64,000 bases of DNA from Patescibacteria group bacterium. GTDB taxonomy: Bacteria > Patescibacteriota > Minisyncoccia > Moranbacterales > GWC2-37-73. The notes below the pieces were generated by a model. The model was not told the DNA's origin and made no database searches. It saw nothing but the letters and a program-made list of their open reading frames with translations. Each line of letters starts with the position of its first letter. Position 1 is the first letter of the stretch. This document shows, in pieces, positions 1-3,752 of the stretch. The translations under genes and the position numbers were made by a program. Where the stretch lies: positions 62,001-126,000 of the forward strand of contig JAKLIP010000002.1 in assembly GCA_022709545.1 (NCBI GenBank), in the 5' to 3' direction.

Positions 1-47
1 TATACTTTATCAAAAATAAACATACTTAATATTTTAATAAATTTTTT

Positions 48-77
48 GGAGGGTGGCAATATTTACTGCCACCCTCC
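48..77 (-). terminator. Strong 11-bp hairpin after the peptide gene
   Basis: GGAGGGTGGCA pairs perfectly with TGCCACCCTCC around an 8-nt loop. It lies about 20 nt past the stop codon of the 46-residue peptide gene, so it probably ends or protects the hisS-rSAM-peptide mRNA. The tail on the minus strand is AAAAAATTTATT rather than a clean U-run, so intrinsic termination is not certain. Nothing else is seen in bases 1-47. Confidence 0.5.
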
Positions 78-96
78 TACCTAGTTCGAATAGTTT

Positions 97-237
97 TTAA
101 TCACCGCAAGAAAAATCGCAGTGACCACAGACACGAGCTTTGCCATTAAAAACAAAGCCTTTTGCAACAAGATCCCTGATCTTAGTCTTCTGATCATTGG
201 TAACCTTGATGTATTTTACCTTCTTTTTTTTCTGCAT
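97..237 (-). CDS. 46-residue Lys-rich peptide with C-terminal Cys cluster; candidate radical SAM substrate
   Basis: This is a short gene, 46 codons plus TAA. The start is fixed by AAAAGGAG seven bases before ATG. The N-terminal part is strongly basic (MQKKKKVKY, then several Lys/Arg). The C-terminal part ends VCGHCDFSCGD, that is C37-x2-C40-x3-C44 followed by Gly-Asp. This is the leader-plus-core layout of a ribosomally made, post-translationally modified peptide. It is the last gene of an operon, 82 bases behind a radical SAM/SPASM gene, and a strong hairpin follows it. No double-glycine cleavage site, protease or exporter is visible nearby. A small metal-binding protein is the main alternative. 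I do not recognise the family. That the gene is real is well supported; its role as a substrate is inference. Confidence 0.75.
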   Translation of the reverse strand: MQKKKKVKYIKVTNDQKTKIRDLVAKGFVFNGKARVCGHCDFSCGD

Positions 238-308
238 AATAAGCTCCTTTTGGTGAGCGGTTATTTTTACTTGTTTGCTATACCTACTTTCCGTATTGAC
301 CTGTTTTT

Positions 309-320
309 ATCACCTCCTTT
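309..320 (-). promoter_or_regulatory. Orphan near-perfect Shine-Dalgarno sequence
   Basis: On the minus strand AAAGGAGGTGAT, complementary to the usual 16S rRNA 3' end, overlaps the stop of the radical SAM gene. No ATG follows within a useful distance. Using the embedded GTG gives only a 9-codon frame (M-I-K-T-G-Q-Y-G-K). It may be a ribosome loading or stand-by site for the peptide gene 82 bases on, or a relic of a lost start. Confidence 0.4.
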
Positions 321-1366
321 CATTTATGACAATGCAACAAGCATTGGGGATCATGTTTAAAATCACTGCCAGTTGCAACATACGCAACCGCTCTGCATCC
401 CCGACAGTATTTCAAAAGTTTACACTCTCGACATCCTTCAATTTCCTCAACTCTTCGATACTTTTCCATTTTTGGATTATCAACAAAATGATAAAGGAAA
501 TTGCTTTGTGGACTCCATTTTCCTATGGTACTGCCTGGATGTCGCCTGCATGCCATCAATGTTTTGTCTGGCAACATCGTCATAGTAGACGATCCCATTC
601 CACATCCCCCACTAACAACGCCCTGTTCAATACCAAGGGAATCCTGCCGACAAATAGAAATAAGCGGTTCTTTTCTGAGCTGTTTATATCCTTTCTTCTC
701 ATATTGCAGATGCTCTTCCAAAATTTTCTTTATAAATCGCATGTACTCGTTAGCTGGAATACCACAATCCCCCTGATTCGGAACCCAGCGAGCAAACATC
801 CAGTGCTGAGCGCCATTTTCATAAACGGCTTTCATGACATCAAACATTTCTCGAAAGTTGTGTGCAGAAAGAGTGGACATGATATATGCTGGTATTCCTG
901 CTTTAGAAAGATCCCTAATAGCTTGCATGGTTCTTTGAAAACTGCCTTTGTATCTGATTTCATCATGCTTTTTTTCCATACCATCTATAGATAGTTGGAA
1001 ATGCTTTAGGTTAAGCTTCGCCAACATTGAAATATTTCTTTCATCGAGAAGTTCTGGGTTTCCTAGAATGCTAACACAACTAAATTTGGTCAAAGATTGA
1101 GAGGCTGCCTTAACTTTAGCCAAAATGTCCCAAAAATGATTATGAAGCATCGGATCACCGCCTGTCAGTGCAATAACTGGTAGAGCATCGAATGCGTCGC
1201 AACACTCTATAAAATCACCTATAATTGCATCAGCATCGTCCAATCTCACGTCCTCTCCTTGGTGCGCATGCTGGTAGCAATGTTTGCATCCATTATTGCA
1301 TTTGTTGGTCAAATGCCATTGAAGATAAATTCGATTTTTTTTTTCAGGGCATTCTTCTTTCATCAT
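320..1366 (-). CDS. Radical SAM/SPASM peptide-modifying enzyme
   Basis: The 348-residue protein has the radical SAM cluster motif C23-x3-C27-x2-C30, followed by TGGDP (68-72) for SAM binding. The C-terminal third carries a SPASM-type auxiliary iron-sulfur domain: C255, C273, then C312-x2-C315-x5-C321-x2-C324 and C342-x3-C346. SPASM maturases of this size commonly install thioether or C-C links in short peptides. The start follows AAGGAGGT, which overlaps the hisS stop, so translation is probably coupled to hisS. The next gene encodes a Cys-containing 46-residue peptide, the obvious candidate substrate. No RRE (PqqD-like) domain is evident in the protein. An anaerobic sulfatase-maturase-like role is possible, but no sulfatase is present in the window. 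Confidence 0.88.
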   Translation of the reverse strand: MMKEECPEKKNRIYLQWHLTNKCNNGCKHCYQHAHQGEDVRLDDADAIIGDFIECCDAFDALPVIALTGGDPMLHNHFWDILAKVKAASQSLTKFSCVSILGNPELLDERNISMLAKLNLKHFQLSIDGMEKKHDEIRYKGSFQRTMQAIRDLSKAGIPAYIMSTLSAHNFREMFDVMKAVYENGAQHWMFARWVPNQGDCGIPANEYMRFIKKILEEHLQYEKKGYKQLRKEPLISICRQDSLGIEQGVVSGGCGMGSSTMTMLPDKTLMACRRHPGSTIGKWSPQSNFLYHFVDNPKMEKYRRVEEIEGCRECKLLKYCRGCRAVAYVATGSDFKHDPQCLLHCHK

Positions 1367-1370
1367 CAGT

Positions 1371-2702
1371 TTACCTCCTTATTTCTAATGAAAGTATTTT
1401 GTCAATTGCTTCTTCAGCAGAAAATACATCCTGTGAACCACTCGCCATATCTTTCAAAGAAACCAGCCCCTGTTCAACTTCAGTATTACCGATAATTAAA
1501 GCAAAGGGAATTTTCAATCGGTCAGCAATTTTAAAAATTTTGCCAACCGTTTTTTGCTCCAAATATACAAAAGTTGAAATTTCATTAGCACGGAACTTTG
1601 CAGATATTTCTACTGCCCTTGCCACTTGGTTATCCATGGGAATAATCATTACACGAGCAGGCGTCGAATTGCCAGCTTTTATTACACCCACATCTTTGAG
1701 TTGGGAGAACAGTCTTGTAAATCCTATTGATATCCCAACACCAGGCAATTTTCTGTCAGTAAATGCTTCGGCCAGATTATCGTATCTGCCGCCAGAGCAG
1801 ATACTGCCAATTTCTGGACAATCATTAAGAGTGGTTTCATAGACAGTGCCCGTGTAATAATCTAAACCACGTGCAATAGCTAAATCTATTTTAAGGCACT
1901 CTCTTGGTACCCCAAAAAGACCTACCATTTGACAAACTTGCTTTAATTCATCGACACCCTCAATGAAGATGGCATTGGTAACTCCAAATTCACATAGCTG
2001 AGAAATAATCTGGTCATTTTCACCCTCAATGGTAATGAAGCTAAGGATCTTTTCTGTTTGATCTATGGATAAACCAAAAGAAAGAAGGTTACTTTTGACT
2101 TGCTCTTTGCCGATTTTTTTAAACTTATCAATAATGCGTAAAATTTCCATCGCCTGCTTTTCTAAGCCCTGAGATTGAAAAAATCCGTTCAAAATTTTAC
2201 GATTATTGATTCTGATAGTGAATGCTCCTAATCCAAGATTCCTAAAGGTTGCATAAATGACTCCTGGAATCTCAGCATCGTTTGCCAAGCTCAATGTTTC
2301 ATTTCCAATAATATCAATGTCGCATTGATAAAATTCACGATATCGTCCTTTCTGCGCTCTTTCTCCCCGAAAAACCTTACCGATTTGGTAACGGCGAAAA
2401 GGAAATTGCAGATCTGCATAGTACTGGGCAACATATCTGGCCAATGGCACAGTTAAATCAAACCTTAAAGCCAAATCAACTTTACCCTTTTGAATGCGAT
2501 AAATCTGCTTATCCGTTTCAATTCCCCCTTTTGCCATAAGAACTTCTTCTTTTTCAATTAGAGGAGTACTTAGGGGAATAAACCCAAAAAGTTCATAGTT
2601 CCTGCGGACAATATCGAGCATCTGGTTAAATAAGATTTGTTCTGCTGGAAGTAGTTCCATAAAGCCACTCAGAGGTTTAAGCTGTTGAATTTTTCTTTTC
2701 AT
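1371..2702 (-). CDS. hisS: Histidyl-tRNA synthetase
   Basis: Class II aminoacyl-tRNA synthetase, 443 residues, that charges tRNA-His. Motif 2 is seen as RYREFYQCDIDI, the histidine-specific segments as GLDYYTGTVYE and GGRYDNL, motif 3 as GVGISIGFTRL, and a C-terminal anticodon-binding domain follows. An in-frame ATG 24 bases upstream exists, but AAAGGAG sits just before the ATG at 2702, so that start is preferred. It is the first gene of an operon with a radical SAM enzyme and a Cys-rich peptide, an unusual partnership. A consensus promoter and a roughly 200-nt leader with two hairpins precede it. Confidence 0.95.
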   Translation of the reverse strand: MKRKIQQLKPLSGFMELLPAEQILFNQMLDIVRRNYELFGFIPLSTPLIEKEEVLMAKGGIETDKQIYRIQKGKVDLALRFDLTVPLARYVAQYYADLQFPFRRYQIGKVFRGERAQKGRYREFYQCDIDIIGNETLSLANDAEIPGVIYATFRNLGLGAFTIRINNRKILNGFFQSQGLEKQAMEILRIIDKFKKIGKEQVKSNLLSFGLSIDQTEKILSFITIEGENDQIISQLCEFGVTNAIFIEGVDELKQVCQMVGLFGVPRECLKIDLAIARGLDYYTGTVYETTLNDCPEIGSICSGGRYDNLAEAFTDRKLPGVGISIGFTRLFSQLKDVGVIKAGNSTPARVMIIPMDNQVARAVEISAKFRANEISTFVYLEQKTVGKIFKIADRLKIPFALIIGNTEVEQGLVSLKDMASGSQDVFSAEEAIDKILSLEIRR

Positions 2703-2783
2703 TGTTTCTCCTTTCTTTTTTTGCATAGTTTAAAGACGTGTTTGATGATTTTCTTTTTTAAAGAACCATTTTGGATAAAAATA

Positions 2784-2872
2784 AAAGCCTCTAAAGAGAG
2801 CTTTAATTTTATTTTTATTTCATTTTTTATTTGTATGAAAAATAAAGACAAAAACCCTCTATAAAATAGAAG
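2784..2872 (-). promoter_or_regulatory. hisS leader with two terminator-like hairpins
   Basis: Hairpin 1 (2856-2872) pairs CTTCTAT with ATAGAGG around TTT and is followed by a U-rich run. Hairpin 2 (2784-2804) pairs AAAGC-CTC with GAG-GCTTT, one bulge, again with a U-rich tail. Both lie between the promoter and hisS on the transcribed strand. The 3' arm of hairpin 1 (AGAG) can pair instead with CTCT of hairpin 2. The arrangement suggests transcription attenuation; no T-box core motif was found. Confidence 0.45.
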
Positions 2873-2897
2873 TGTCACAATGTTGCCTAATTGTCAT
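2859..2897 (-). CDS. Possible 12-codon leader peptide
   Basis: ATG begins about 13 nt after the predicted transcription start and reads M-T-I-R-Q-H-C-D-T-S-I-L before TAG. The stop codon lies inside hairpin 1 of the leader, so a translating ribosome would open that hairpin. Only one His codon is present, unlike classical his-operon leaders. The ribosome binding site is weak (GAAG). Low confidence. Confidence 0.25.
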   Translation of the reverse strand: MTIRQHCDTSIL

Positions 2898-2916
2898 TAT
2901 ATTCTTCATACCCGTA

Positions 2917-2944
2917 ATTATACATCTTAATTTATTTTTGTCAA
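2917..2944 (-). promoter_or_regulatory. Consensus promoter for the hisS-rSAM-peptide operon
   Basis: On the minus strand a perfect TTGACA (2939-2944) and a perfect TATAAT (2917-2922) are separated by 16 bases. Transcription would start near 2910, leaving a leader of about 208 nt before hisS. The sequence from 2945 to 3109 shows nothing else I can name. Confidence 0.8.
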
Positions 2945-3109
2945 TACTTTAACAGGAATTTTGCCTTTGAAATTACCGTGATATATTATAATATTAAAGC
3001 AGTAAAACAAAAGAAGCCAGGTACCTTTTTGGTTTCATTTATAAATTCTGTATTCCACCTCTTCCATTTCTCTCAGCACTCTAAAGAATAAAAAATAAAG
3101 TCGGTTTTT

Positions 3110-3136
3110 AAAAAGAAGCAGGAATGCTTCTTTTTT
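3110..3136 (-). terminator. Intrinsic terminator of the acidic Cys-rich gene
   Basis: AAGAAGCA pairs with TGCTTCTT around GGAA, flanked by A- and T-runs on both sides, so it can work on either strand. It lies 25 bases past the stop of the minus-strand gene at 3162-3752. Confidence 0.75.
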
Positions 3137-3161: not shown

Positions 3162-3752
3162 TTATTCAGCCTCTTCTGCAGCAGTTTCTTCTGTCGTGTC
3201 TTCTGCAGCAGTTTCTTCTGCATCTGCTTCCTCCTCTTTAGCAGCTAAGCACTCTTCATCACCTTCTTCACATTCTGCAGCTTCCTCTTCGGCAGCTAGG
3301 CATTCTTCATCATCTTCAGCGCATTCAGATTCTTCCTCTTCTTCAGCTGGATTATCAATATTATATTGCACTGGATCATTGCATTCTACTCCCTGTTCTT
3401 CCTTAGTTATTTCATCGCAAAAAGTTACGCTGCAATCTTCTTCCCCTTCCAAACATTCAAAGGGAAGGCAGTTTTCATCATCAGGATCACATTCCGGAAT
3501 CATGTTGGCTTTTCTCTGTGCAACCGCATAATACCAAATGTCCATTTCCGGATCCCCTGTGCAAGCTTCCCCTTCTTCTGTTGATTCAGGATCACATTCC
3601 CAAATAAAACAGGCATCGACTGTCGGATCGCAGTCTATCTGATTTTGGATTATATAATCTTTCTGAACATATATGCGAATAAAAGTCACCCATACCGATA
3701 TTATGATGAGCGAGATAAATGTAGCTAAAAAAATTGCAGATTTTTTATCCAT
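3162..3752 (-). CDS. Membrane-anchored acidic Cys-rich protein
   Basis: 196 residues. A single N-terminal transmembrane segment (about 7-30) is followed by a very acidic extracytoplasmic part with paired cysteines in DCDP, CDPES, DDENCLPFEC and DDEECLA contexts. The C-terminal third is built of Glu/Ala stretches with a tandem repeat of the type C-x6-C-L-A-A-x-E-E-E. The spacing suggests disulfide pairs or a Ca/metal-binding stalk. Similar proteins occur in uncultivated CPR genomes, but I cannot assign a function. No Shine-Dalgarno sequence precedes the ATG. The acidic repeat tail makes a convincing-looking antisense Ser-rich frame, which is a shadow. Confidence 0.75.
   Translation of the reverse strand: MDKKSAIFLATFISLIIISVWVTFIRIYVQKDYIIQNQIDCDPTVDACFIWECDPESTEEGEACTGDPEMDIWYYAVAQRKANMIPECDPDDENCLPFECLEGEEDCSVTFCDEITKEEQGVECNDPVQYNIDNPAEEEEESECAEDDEECLAAEEEAAECEEGDEECLAAKEEEADAEETAAEDTTEETAAEEAE

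Follow-up and report, generated by a model that had tools for sequence, protein, structure and literature searches.

A candidate three-gene RiPP-type cassette with a divergent radical SAM/SPASM enzyme in a Patescibacteria genome

The closest curated relative of the locus described here is the ACGX system, a radical S-adenosylmethionine (SAM)/SPASM family represented by an enzyme model (TIGR04340, rSAM_ACGX) and an ACGX-repeat peptide model (TIGR04341). We analysed a 64,000-nucleotide window (C10:62001-126000, where C10 is the contig) of a Patescibacteria assembly (G000; 1.02 Mb, 98.2% complete, 9.6% contamination) and identified a locus that shares with the ACGX system a short cysteine peptide gene next to the enzyme gene and the layout of cluster cysteines. 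Genes for a radical SAM/SPASM enzyme, a 46-aa peptide and a class I methyltransferase lie side by side. We consider it likely, with a probability of about 0.8, that they constitute a cassette of the ribosomally synthesised and post-translationally modified peptide (RiPP) type in a Candidate Phyla Radiation (CPR)-type genome, in which the enzyme would modify the peptide and methylation would follow.

CPR bacteria, whose genomes are tiny, are believed to live on other bacteria. Genomes of 0.5-1 Mb are abundant in the host phylum, which is the pattern of CPR/Patescibacteria. In samples that each include the source genome, the enzyme was detected in 2/287 genomes of the phylum, 4/286 of the class and 6/131 of the order, so the cassette is rare in the host order. 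Our partial coverage of the literature yielded no account of a CPR bacterium in which a radical SAM/SPASM peptide system has a dedicated methyltransferase, and nothing on 'ACGX' in connection with radical SAM. Graspetides have been reported from CPR bacteria (PMC8939145).

Enzyme, peptide and methyltransferase

All features of the cassette and its upstream gene are on the reverse strand. The enzyme (348 aa; 320..1366) was recognised as a radical SAM/SPASM peptide maturase from a PF04055 match (76 bits; cut-off 29.5), its predicted fold and a match to TIGR04340, which is its best NCBIfam model although the score (225 bits) falls below the cut-off of 400. The radical SAM core carries the CX3CX2C motif typical of family members (C23, C27 and C30; 1277..1300), predicted to hold the SAM-binding 4Fe-4S cluster, and the SPASM region (341..604) has the seven-cysteine layout for two auxiliary clusters (C255, C273, C312, C315, C321, C324 and C342). 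Both sets are invariant in 34 homologues. The original prediction, made from the DNA letters of this region, had counted three and eight cluster cysteines; the eighth SPASM cysteine, C346, is not conserved among these homologues. The predicted fold (pLDDT 84) resembles SPASM enzymes and is nearest to BlsE, SkfB, SuiB, anSME and the enzyme of 5wgg/5why, which we take to be CteB. Among solved peptide maturases, a profile search placed SkfB (6efn), SuiB (5v1q) and the 5wgg sactipeptide maturase nearest. By these sequence criteria the enzyme is predicted to work like a SPASM peptide maturase.

The next gene (97..237) encodes a precursor-like peptide of 46 aa (MQKKKKVKYIKVTNDQKTKIRDLVAKGFVFNGKARVCGHCDFSCGD), which is present in a second copy on another contig of the assembly, C12, and has homologues in three related genomes (G585, G526 and G649; together with the window, the 'window-type' set). 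The peptide is highly basic, and the basic half is N-terminal. It contains a putative leader motif, LxxxGF[VI] (L23-F28; 154..171), whose L, G and F recur without change and with even spacing in all four window-type peptides, and a core-like C-terminal part, CGHCDFSCGD (100..129), with CxxC in 4/4 and a C-terminal Asp in 3/4 of them. No NCBIfam or Pfam model matched the peptide. TIGR04341 likewise gave no match, while a control ACGX peptide scored 74 bits (cut-off 28); as an ACGX repeat is also lacking, we ruled out that this is an ACGX peptide.

The third gene begins at the left edge of the window (1..59; TTG at 59 or ATG at 20), and its remainder lies outside, at C10:61415-62000. The full gene (C10:61415-62059; L005:9416-10060) encodes a TehB-like class I SAM methyltransferase (PF03848, 85 bits; PF13649, 67 bits). 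A motif scan overlooked it because its motif reads GLDLGCGQG, and its identity comes from the Pfam match instead. With this gene past the edge, the unit comprises at least enzyme, peptide and methyltransferase.

Between the peptide and methyltransferase genes is a perfect 13-bp hairpin (48..77; -25.7 kcal/mol; z -5 to -7; 0/200 shuffles as stable), which had been read as the end of the unit. The hairpin is indeed strong, but on the transcript strand AAAAAAUUUAUU comes next, with no U-run, no terminator-like site was called there, and the methyltransferase gene lies directly beyond. Since it stands directly ahead of, or over the start of, that gene, the sequence argues that it is not an ordinary terminator and not the end of the unit. 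Only a single loop base differs between the C10 and C12 hairpins.

A second copy, relatives and neighbouring genes

C12 may come from the host itself or from a relative binned with it. It carries the same 2.2-kb methyltransferase-peptide-enzyme block in other surroundings, and the two copies are 95% identical in nucleotides. Between the two copies, the peptide gene has 4 synonymous and 0 nonsynonymous changes and the protein is identical; the probability of four random changes all being synonymous is ~0.004, or 0.012 if only transitions are considered. By comparison, we counted 15 synonymous and 13 nonsynonymous changes in the enzyme gene, and 5 and 4 in that of the methyltransferase (98% identical). 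This pattern indicates a real peptide gene under purifying selection at the protein level, as is generally expected of a RiPP precursor. The three genes are adjacent and, by sequence comparison, travel together with all cluster cysteines kept, and the cassette is probably functional. Flanking genes common to both contexts are only ~49-74% identical compared with 95% for the block, and therefore, in comparison with its surroundings, the cassette was moved or exchanged recently. Upstream of hisS, 118 bp of intergenic sequence (window 3004-3120) share 97% identity with a stretch ~1.3 kb ahead of the C12 enzyme gene, and the adjacent genes are far more diverged.

In the window, the enzyme gene follows hisS (1371..2702; histidyl-tRNA synthetase, TIGR00442, 402 bits; cut-off 287) after a gap of 4 nt, and its Shine-Dalgarno site, AAGGAGG (1374..1380), lies against the hisS end. 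Upstream of hisS is a sigma-70-type promoter, TTGACA-16-TATAAT (2917..2944), that matches the consensus at 12/12 positions. The genes for hisS, the enzyme and the peptide, this promoter and the Shine-Dalgarno sites ahead of each gene are all as originally predicted. The single promoter and the short gap would suit one functional operon of hisS, enzyme and peptide, with a role of the peptide in histidine or tRNA metabolism. We regard that as very improbable: hisS is single in the whole assembly, the C12 block begins 33 nt inside the hisS 3′ end with no hisS gene there, and hisS is not adjacent to the homologous loci in G585, G526, G451, G239, G408, G645 and G646. Because the C12 block starts within hisS, it retains a scrap of that gene with the enzyme's Shine-Dalgarno site. 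The fusion to a hisS operon is thus a feature of this copy, and since hisS is missing from the C12 copy and from relatives' loci, we judge it to be outside the system, incidental and supplying only an upstream promoter to this copy alone.

The window, G585, G526 and G649 enzymes form one clade with 100/100 support and a long stem; G585 is in the same family as the host, and G526 and G649 are in the same order. In each of the three relatives, a short basic peptide directly follows the enzyme gene and has the same plan, LxxxGF[IV] and then CxxC. Ungapped similarity to the window peptide exceeded shuffles for G585 (p = 0.0025) and G526 (p = 0.017), and was not significant for the G649 peptide taken alone (p = 0.21). 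The methyltransferase comes immediately after the peptide in G585 and G526. In G649, the next gene has a HELIH metalloprotease-like motif and the contig ends shortly beyond. At farther CPR loci (G451, G239, G408, Uhrbacteria L023, Patescibacteria L028 and G645), a Cys-ended peptide is encoded ahead of the enzyme, and a methyltransferase adjoins the latter. Overall, a methyltransferase adjoins 12/13 CPR loci, and the contig of the 13th ends.

A GTDB-wide scan revealed a large ACGX-like family, with a Cys-rich peptide just upstream of the enzyme in most loci. By a strict criterion (a short open reading frame (ORF) beside the enzyme with at least 3 C-terminal Cys), such an ORF was found in 64/89 loci versus 10% of control windows, and in 11/13 CPR loci versus 3% of control windows and 10% of shuffles. 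A short precursor gene beside a modifying enzyme and conserved in relatives is a general mark of RiPP systems. Furthermore, the peptide type tracks the enzyme clade by sequence: enzymes of the ACGX clade are accompanied by ACGX-repeat peptides, those of a clostridial clade by the CSCNC type, those of one CPR clade by the DPCxCTGC type and those of the window clade by the LxxxGF...CxxC type. Methyltransferases adjoin the last three groups. The earlier proposal of a RiPP system therefore held on the peptide: its frame is conserved at the amino-acid level, the nearest relatives have a short Cys peptide adjacent to the enzyme, and peptide type and enzyme clade go together. Because the C12 copy has only synonymous peptide changes and CPR relatives have matching enzyme/peptide pairs, the RiPP reading is well supported by sequence comparison.

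The same co-variation bears on whether the peptide is the substrate at all. It could instead be a small co-expressed Cys protein, with the enzyme acting on something else; its modification is a prediction, and it is as basic as a nucleic-acid-binding protein would be. This seems a poor explanation, because the peptide family shifts in step with the enzyme clade, its conserved residues are the C-terminal Cys and the leader motif, and the adjacent Cys peptide of the related ACGX family is curated as the enzyme's partner (TIGR04340/TIGR04341).

Other genes near the cassette were also noted. A membrane histidine kinase is encoded within ~10 kb of it at five loci (L005:4164-6784, L015:4135-8647, L106:7582-9411, L107:1738-3570 and L004:326-2032), and C10 and G526 also carry a response regulator and an aspS-like synthetase nearby. 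A dedicated signalling role was rejected, since the kinase occurs in 82/131 order genomes and the enzyme in 6, making the kinase non-specific to the cassette; the co-location itself is real and perhaps reflects a shared ancestral site or an insertion hot spot. Viral origin was also rejected, with one weak, unrelated match among viral contigs, and the plasmid matches were two distant clostridial ones, one annotated ACGX. The protein encoded at window 3162-3752 is very acidic and membrane-anchored, has repeated Cys and matches neither Pfam nor NCBIfam models; relatives of it lie near the cassette in C12 and G526. A 219-aa protein at window 4882-5541 matches a nucleoside-diphosphate-kinase domain (38 bits) and is seemingly split or interrupted. 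In G408, a second, different radical SAM gene lies by the cassette (L017:5569-7133), and a 47-codon ORF ahead of it ends KFGKDGCCVYNR, possibly another peptide system. Two ACGX-like radical SAM matches (L068:4001-5023 and L074:2211-3254) each contain one in-frame stop, which may be a disruption, an assembly error, their own stop included in the coordinates, or recoding.

Predicted chemistry, SAM supply and product

Our preferred reading of the cassette as a RiPP-type system predicts crosslinking plus methylation as the most likely chemistry. The basic N-terminal half with LxxxGF would serve as the leader and be recognised by the enzyme without a RiPP recognition element (RRE). The radical SAM enzyme would then modify the Cys-containing C-terminus, by analogy most likely through a crosslink derived from Cys, for instance a thioether. 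The methyltransferase may add a methyl group to the product.

Several observations weigh against this. The cysteines of the window peptide are C37, C40 and C44 only, the G526 and G585 homologues, with CTICTGMDGD and CAICTGMDGD respectively, carry two, and at G646 the best candidate peptide has a single Cys. Domain search of the enzyme gave no PqqD-like RRE, which is common in RiPP systems and not obligatory, and beside the window copy there is no exporter or protease. CX3D/E motifs were not significantly more frequent than in composition-matched shuffles (7 seen against 5.8 expected; p = 0.35). In the whole assembly, there was no match to a SAM synthetase, either bacterial MetK (TIGR01034) or archaeal AdoMet synthase (PF01941).

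The lack of an RRE had been noted before, and the only PqqD domain of the genome forms part of a different radical SAM enzyme. This second enzyme, with an N-terminal PqqD (RRE-like) domain, is encoded at L004:5702-6943 (C12, reverse strand), ~5 kb from the C12 cassette, and scores below every curated family cut-off. The missing exporter and protease had been taken as a hint of an intracellular cofactor, which does not hold: the methyltransferase lies outside the window, and the C12 block has a DUF2268 Zn-protease, an EamA carrier and an M28 peptidase as neighbours, so their lack at the window copy is no argument for an intracellular product. The radical SAM/SPASM and Cys-precursor system that was originally predicted thus passed the refuting tests that were run, and the role of hisS, the hairpin as an end and the intracellular cofactor were not supported.

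The type of crosslink might be that of PapB-like ranthipeptide maturation, with Cys-to-Asp (non-alpha-carbon) thioethers in the CGHCDFSCGD tail. The PapB model aligns across the whole enzyme (80 bits), and the core, which like those of PapB-type maturases combines Cys with Asp, offers C37-X3-D41 and C44-X1-D46; PapB accepts Cys-Xn-Asp with n = 0-6 (PMC9413430). An Asp terminus is found in 8/11 compared CPR peptides. However, 80 bits is far under the cut-off of 340 and places the enzyme outside the PapB family by score, the ACGX and SbtM models are nearer, and Cys-X3-Asp/Glu shows no enrichment over the shuffles above. We therefore hold this chemistry to be possible, at somewhat less than even odds.

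The assembly, which has no synthetase match, encodes several radical SAM enzymes and methyltransferases, as well as a cysteine desulfurase-like aminotransferase (PF00266), and has no match to SufB/D. In Rickettsia, EamA has been characterised as a carrier of SAM (PMC5615194), and EamA genes adjoin the cassette in C12 and G451 and lie a few kb off in G526. Import of SAM, maybe via EamA, is a plausible hypothesis that fits the missing synthetase; if true, an expensive cofactor is imported to build a product.

The same carriers could point elsewhere. Some opine-type metallophores are exported by EamA carriers, and the product might be no antimicrobial but a small compound with redox or metal-binding properties, or a metallophore, with the modified, methylated Cys tail binding metal or leaving via an EamA-type carrier. 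The CxxC...C core, the methyltransferase and the EamA genes at the three loci are compatible with this. We think it unlikely, as the window copy has no EamA neighbour, identity among the EamA proteins is only ~25-29%, and EamA could equally import SAM as in Rickettsia.

The RiPP-type reading could be carried further, to a previously undescribed, CPR-specific RiPP class with a basic LxxxGF leader, a CxxC...D core and a deep-branching radical SAM/SPASM enzyme followed by methylation, mobile between chromosomal contexts in hosts that lack SAM synthetase and spend imported SAM. We advance this only tentatively, and doubt outweighs confidence. The cassette bears on why some CPR bacteria keep a peptide-modifying pathway, and, if confirmed, its three genes would be a compact system in which to study new peptide chemistry and the roles of modified peptides in CPR bacteria.

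Comparison with known systems

Sequence comparison places the enzyme as a deep, divergent relative of the ACGX system. The window enzyme falls well short of the ACGX cut-off, as do the other window-type enzymes tested (232 and 242 bits), and it belongs to a separate, strongly supported clade on a long branch. The gene order is enzyme-peptide-methyltransferase, whereas that of ACGX loci is peptide-enzyme, and the window cassette has a methyltransferase, which ACGX-repeat loci lack (0/66 rows of this clade in a motif scan). The SbtM model (TIGR04082, 'thio(seleno)oxazole' maturase) is the second-best curated match, with 174 bits over the full enzyme, below the cut-off of 350; it has ~200 extra N-terminal positions that the window enzyme is without.

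Two groups resemble the window cassette more closely in gene content. Clostridial and Saccharibacterial relatives (YW...SAQ / CSCNC peptides), labelled rSAM_ACGX by NCBIfam, also combine a Cys peptide, a radical SAM/SPASM enzyme and an adjoining class I methyltransferase, but their enzymes exceed the ACGX cut-off (416-465 bits) and their peptides lie upstream, with a YW-type leader and many Cys. The 'YWRK...DPCxCTGC' type (Uhrbacteria L023, Patescibacteria L028, G239 and G408, with G451 similar) shares CPR-type hosts, the set of peptide, enzyme and methyltransferase, and Asp-ended peptides. It differs in its enzymes (35-37% identical), its upstream peptide with a longer YWRK leader and its usually convergent methyltransferase.

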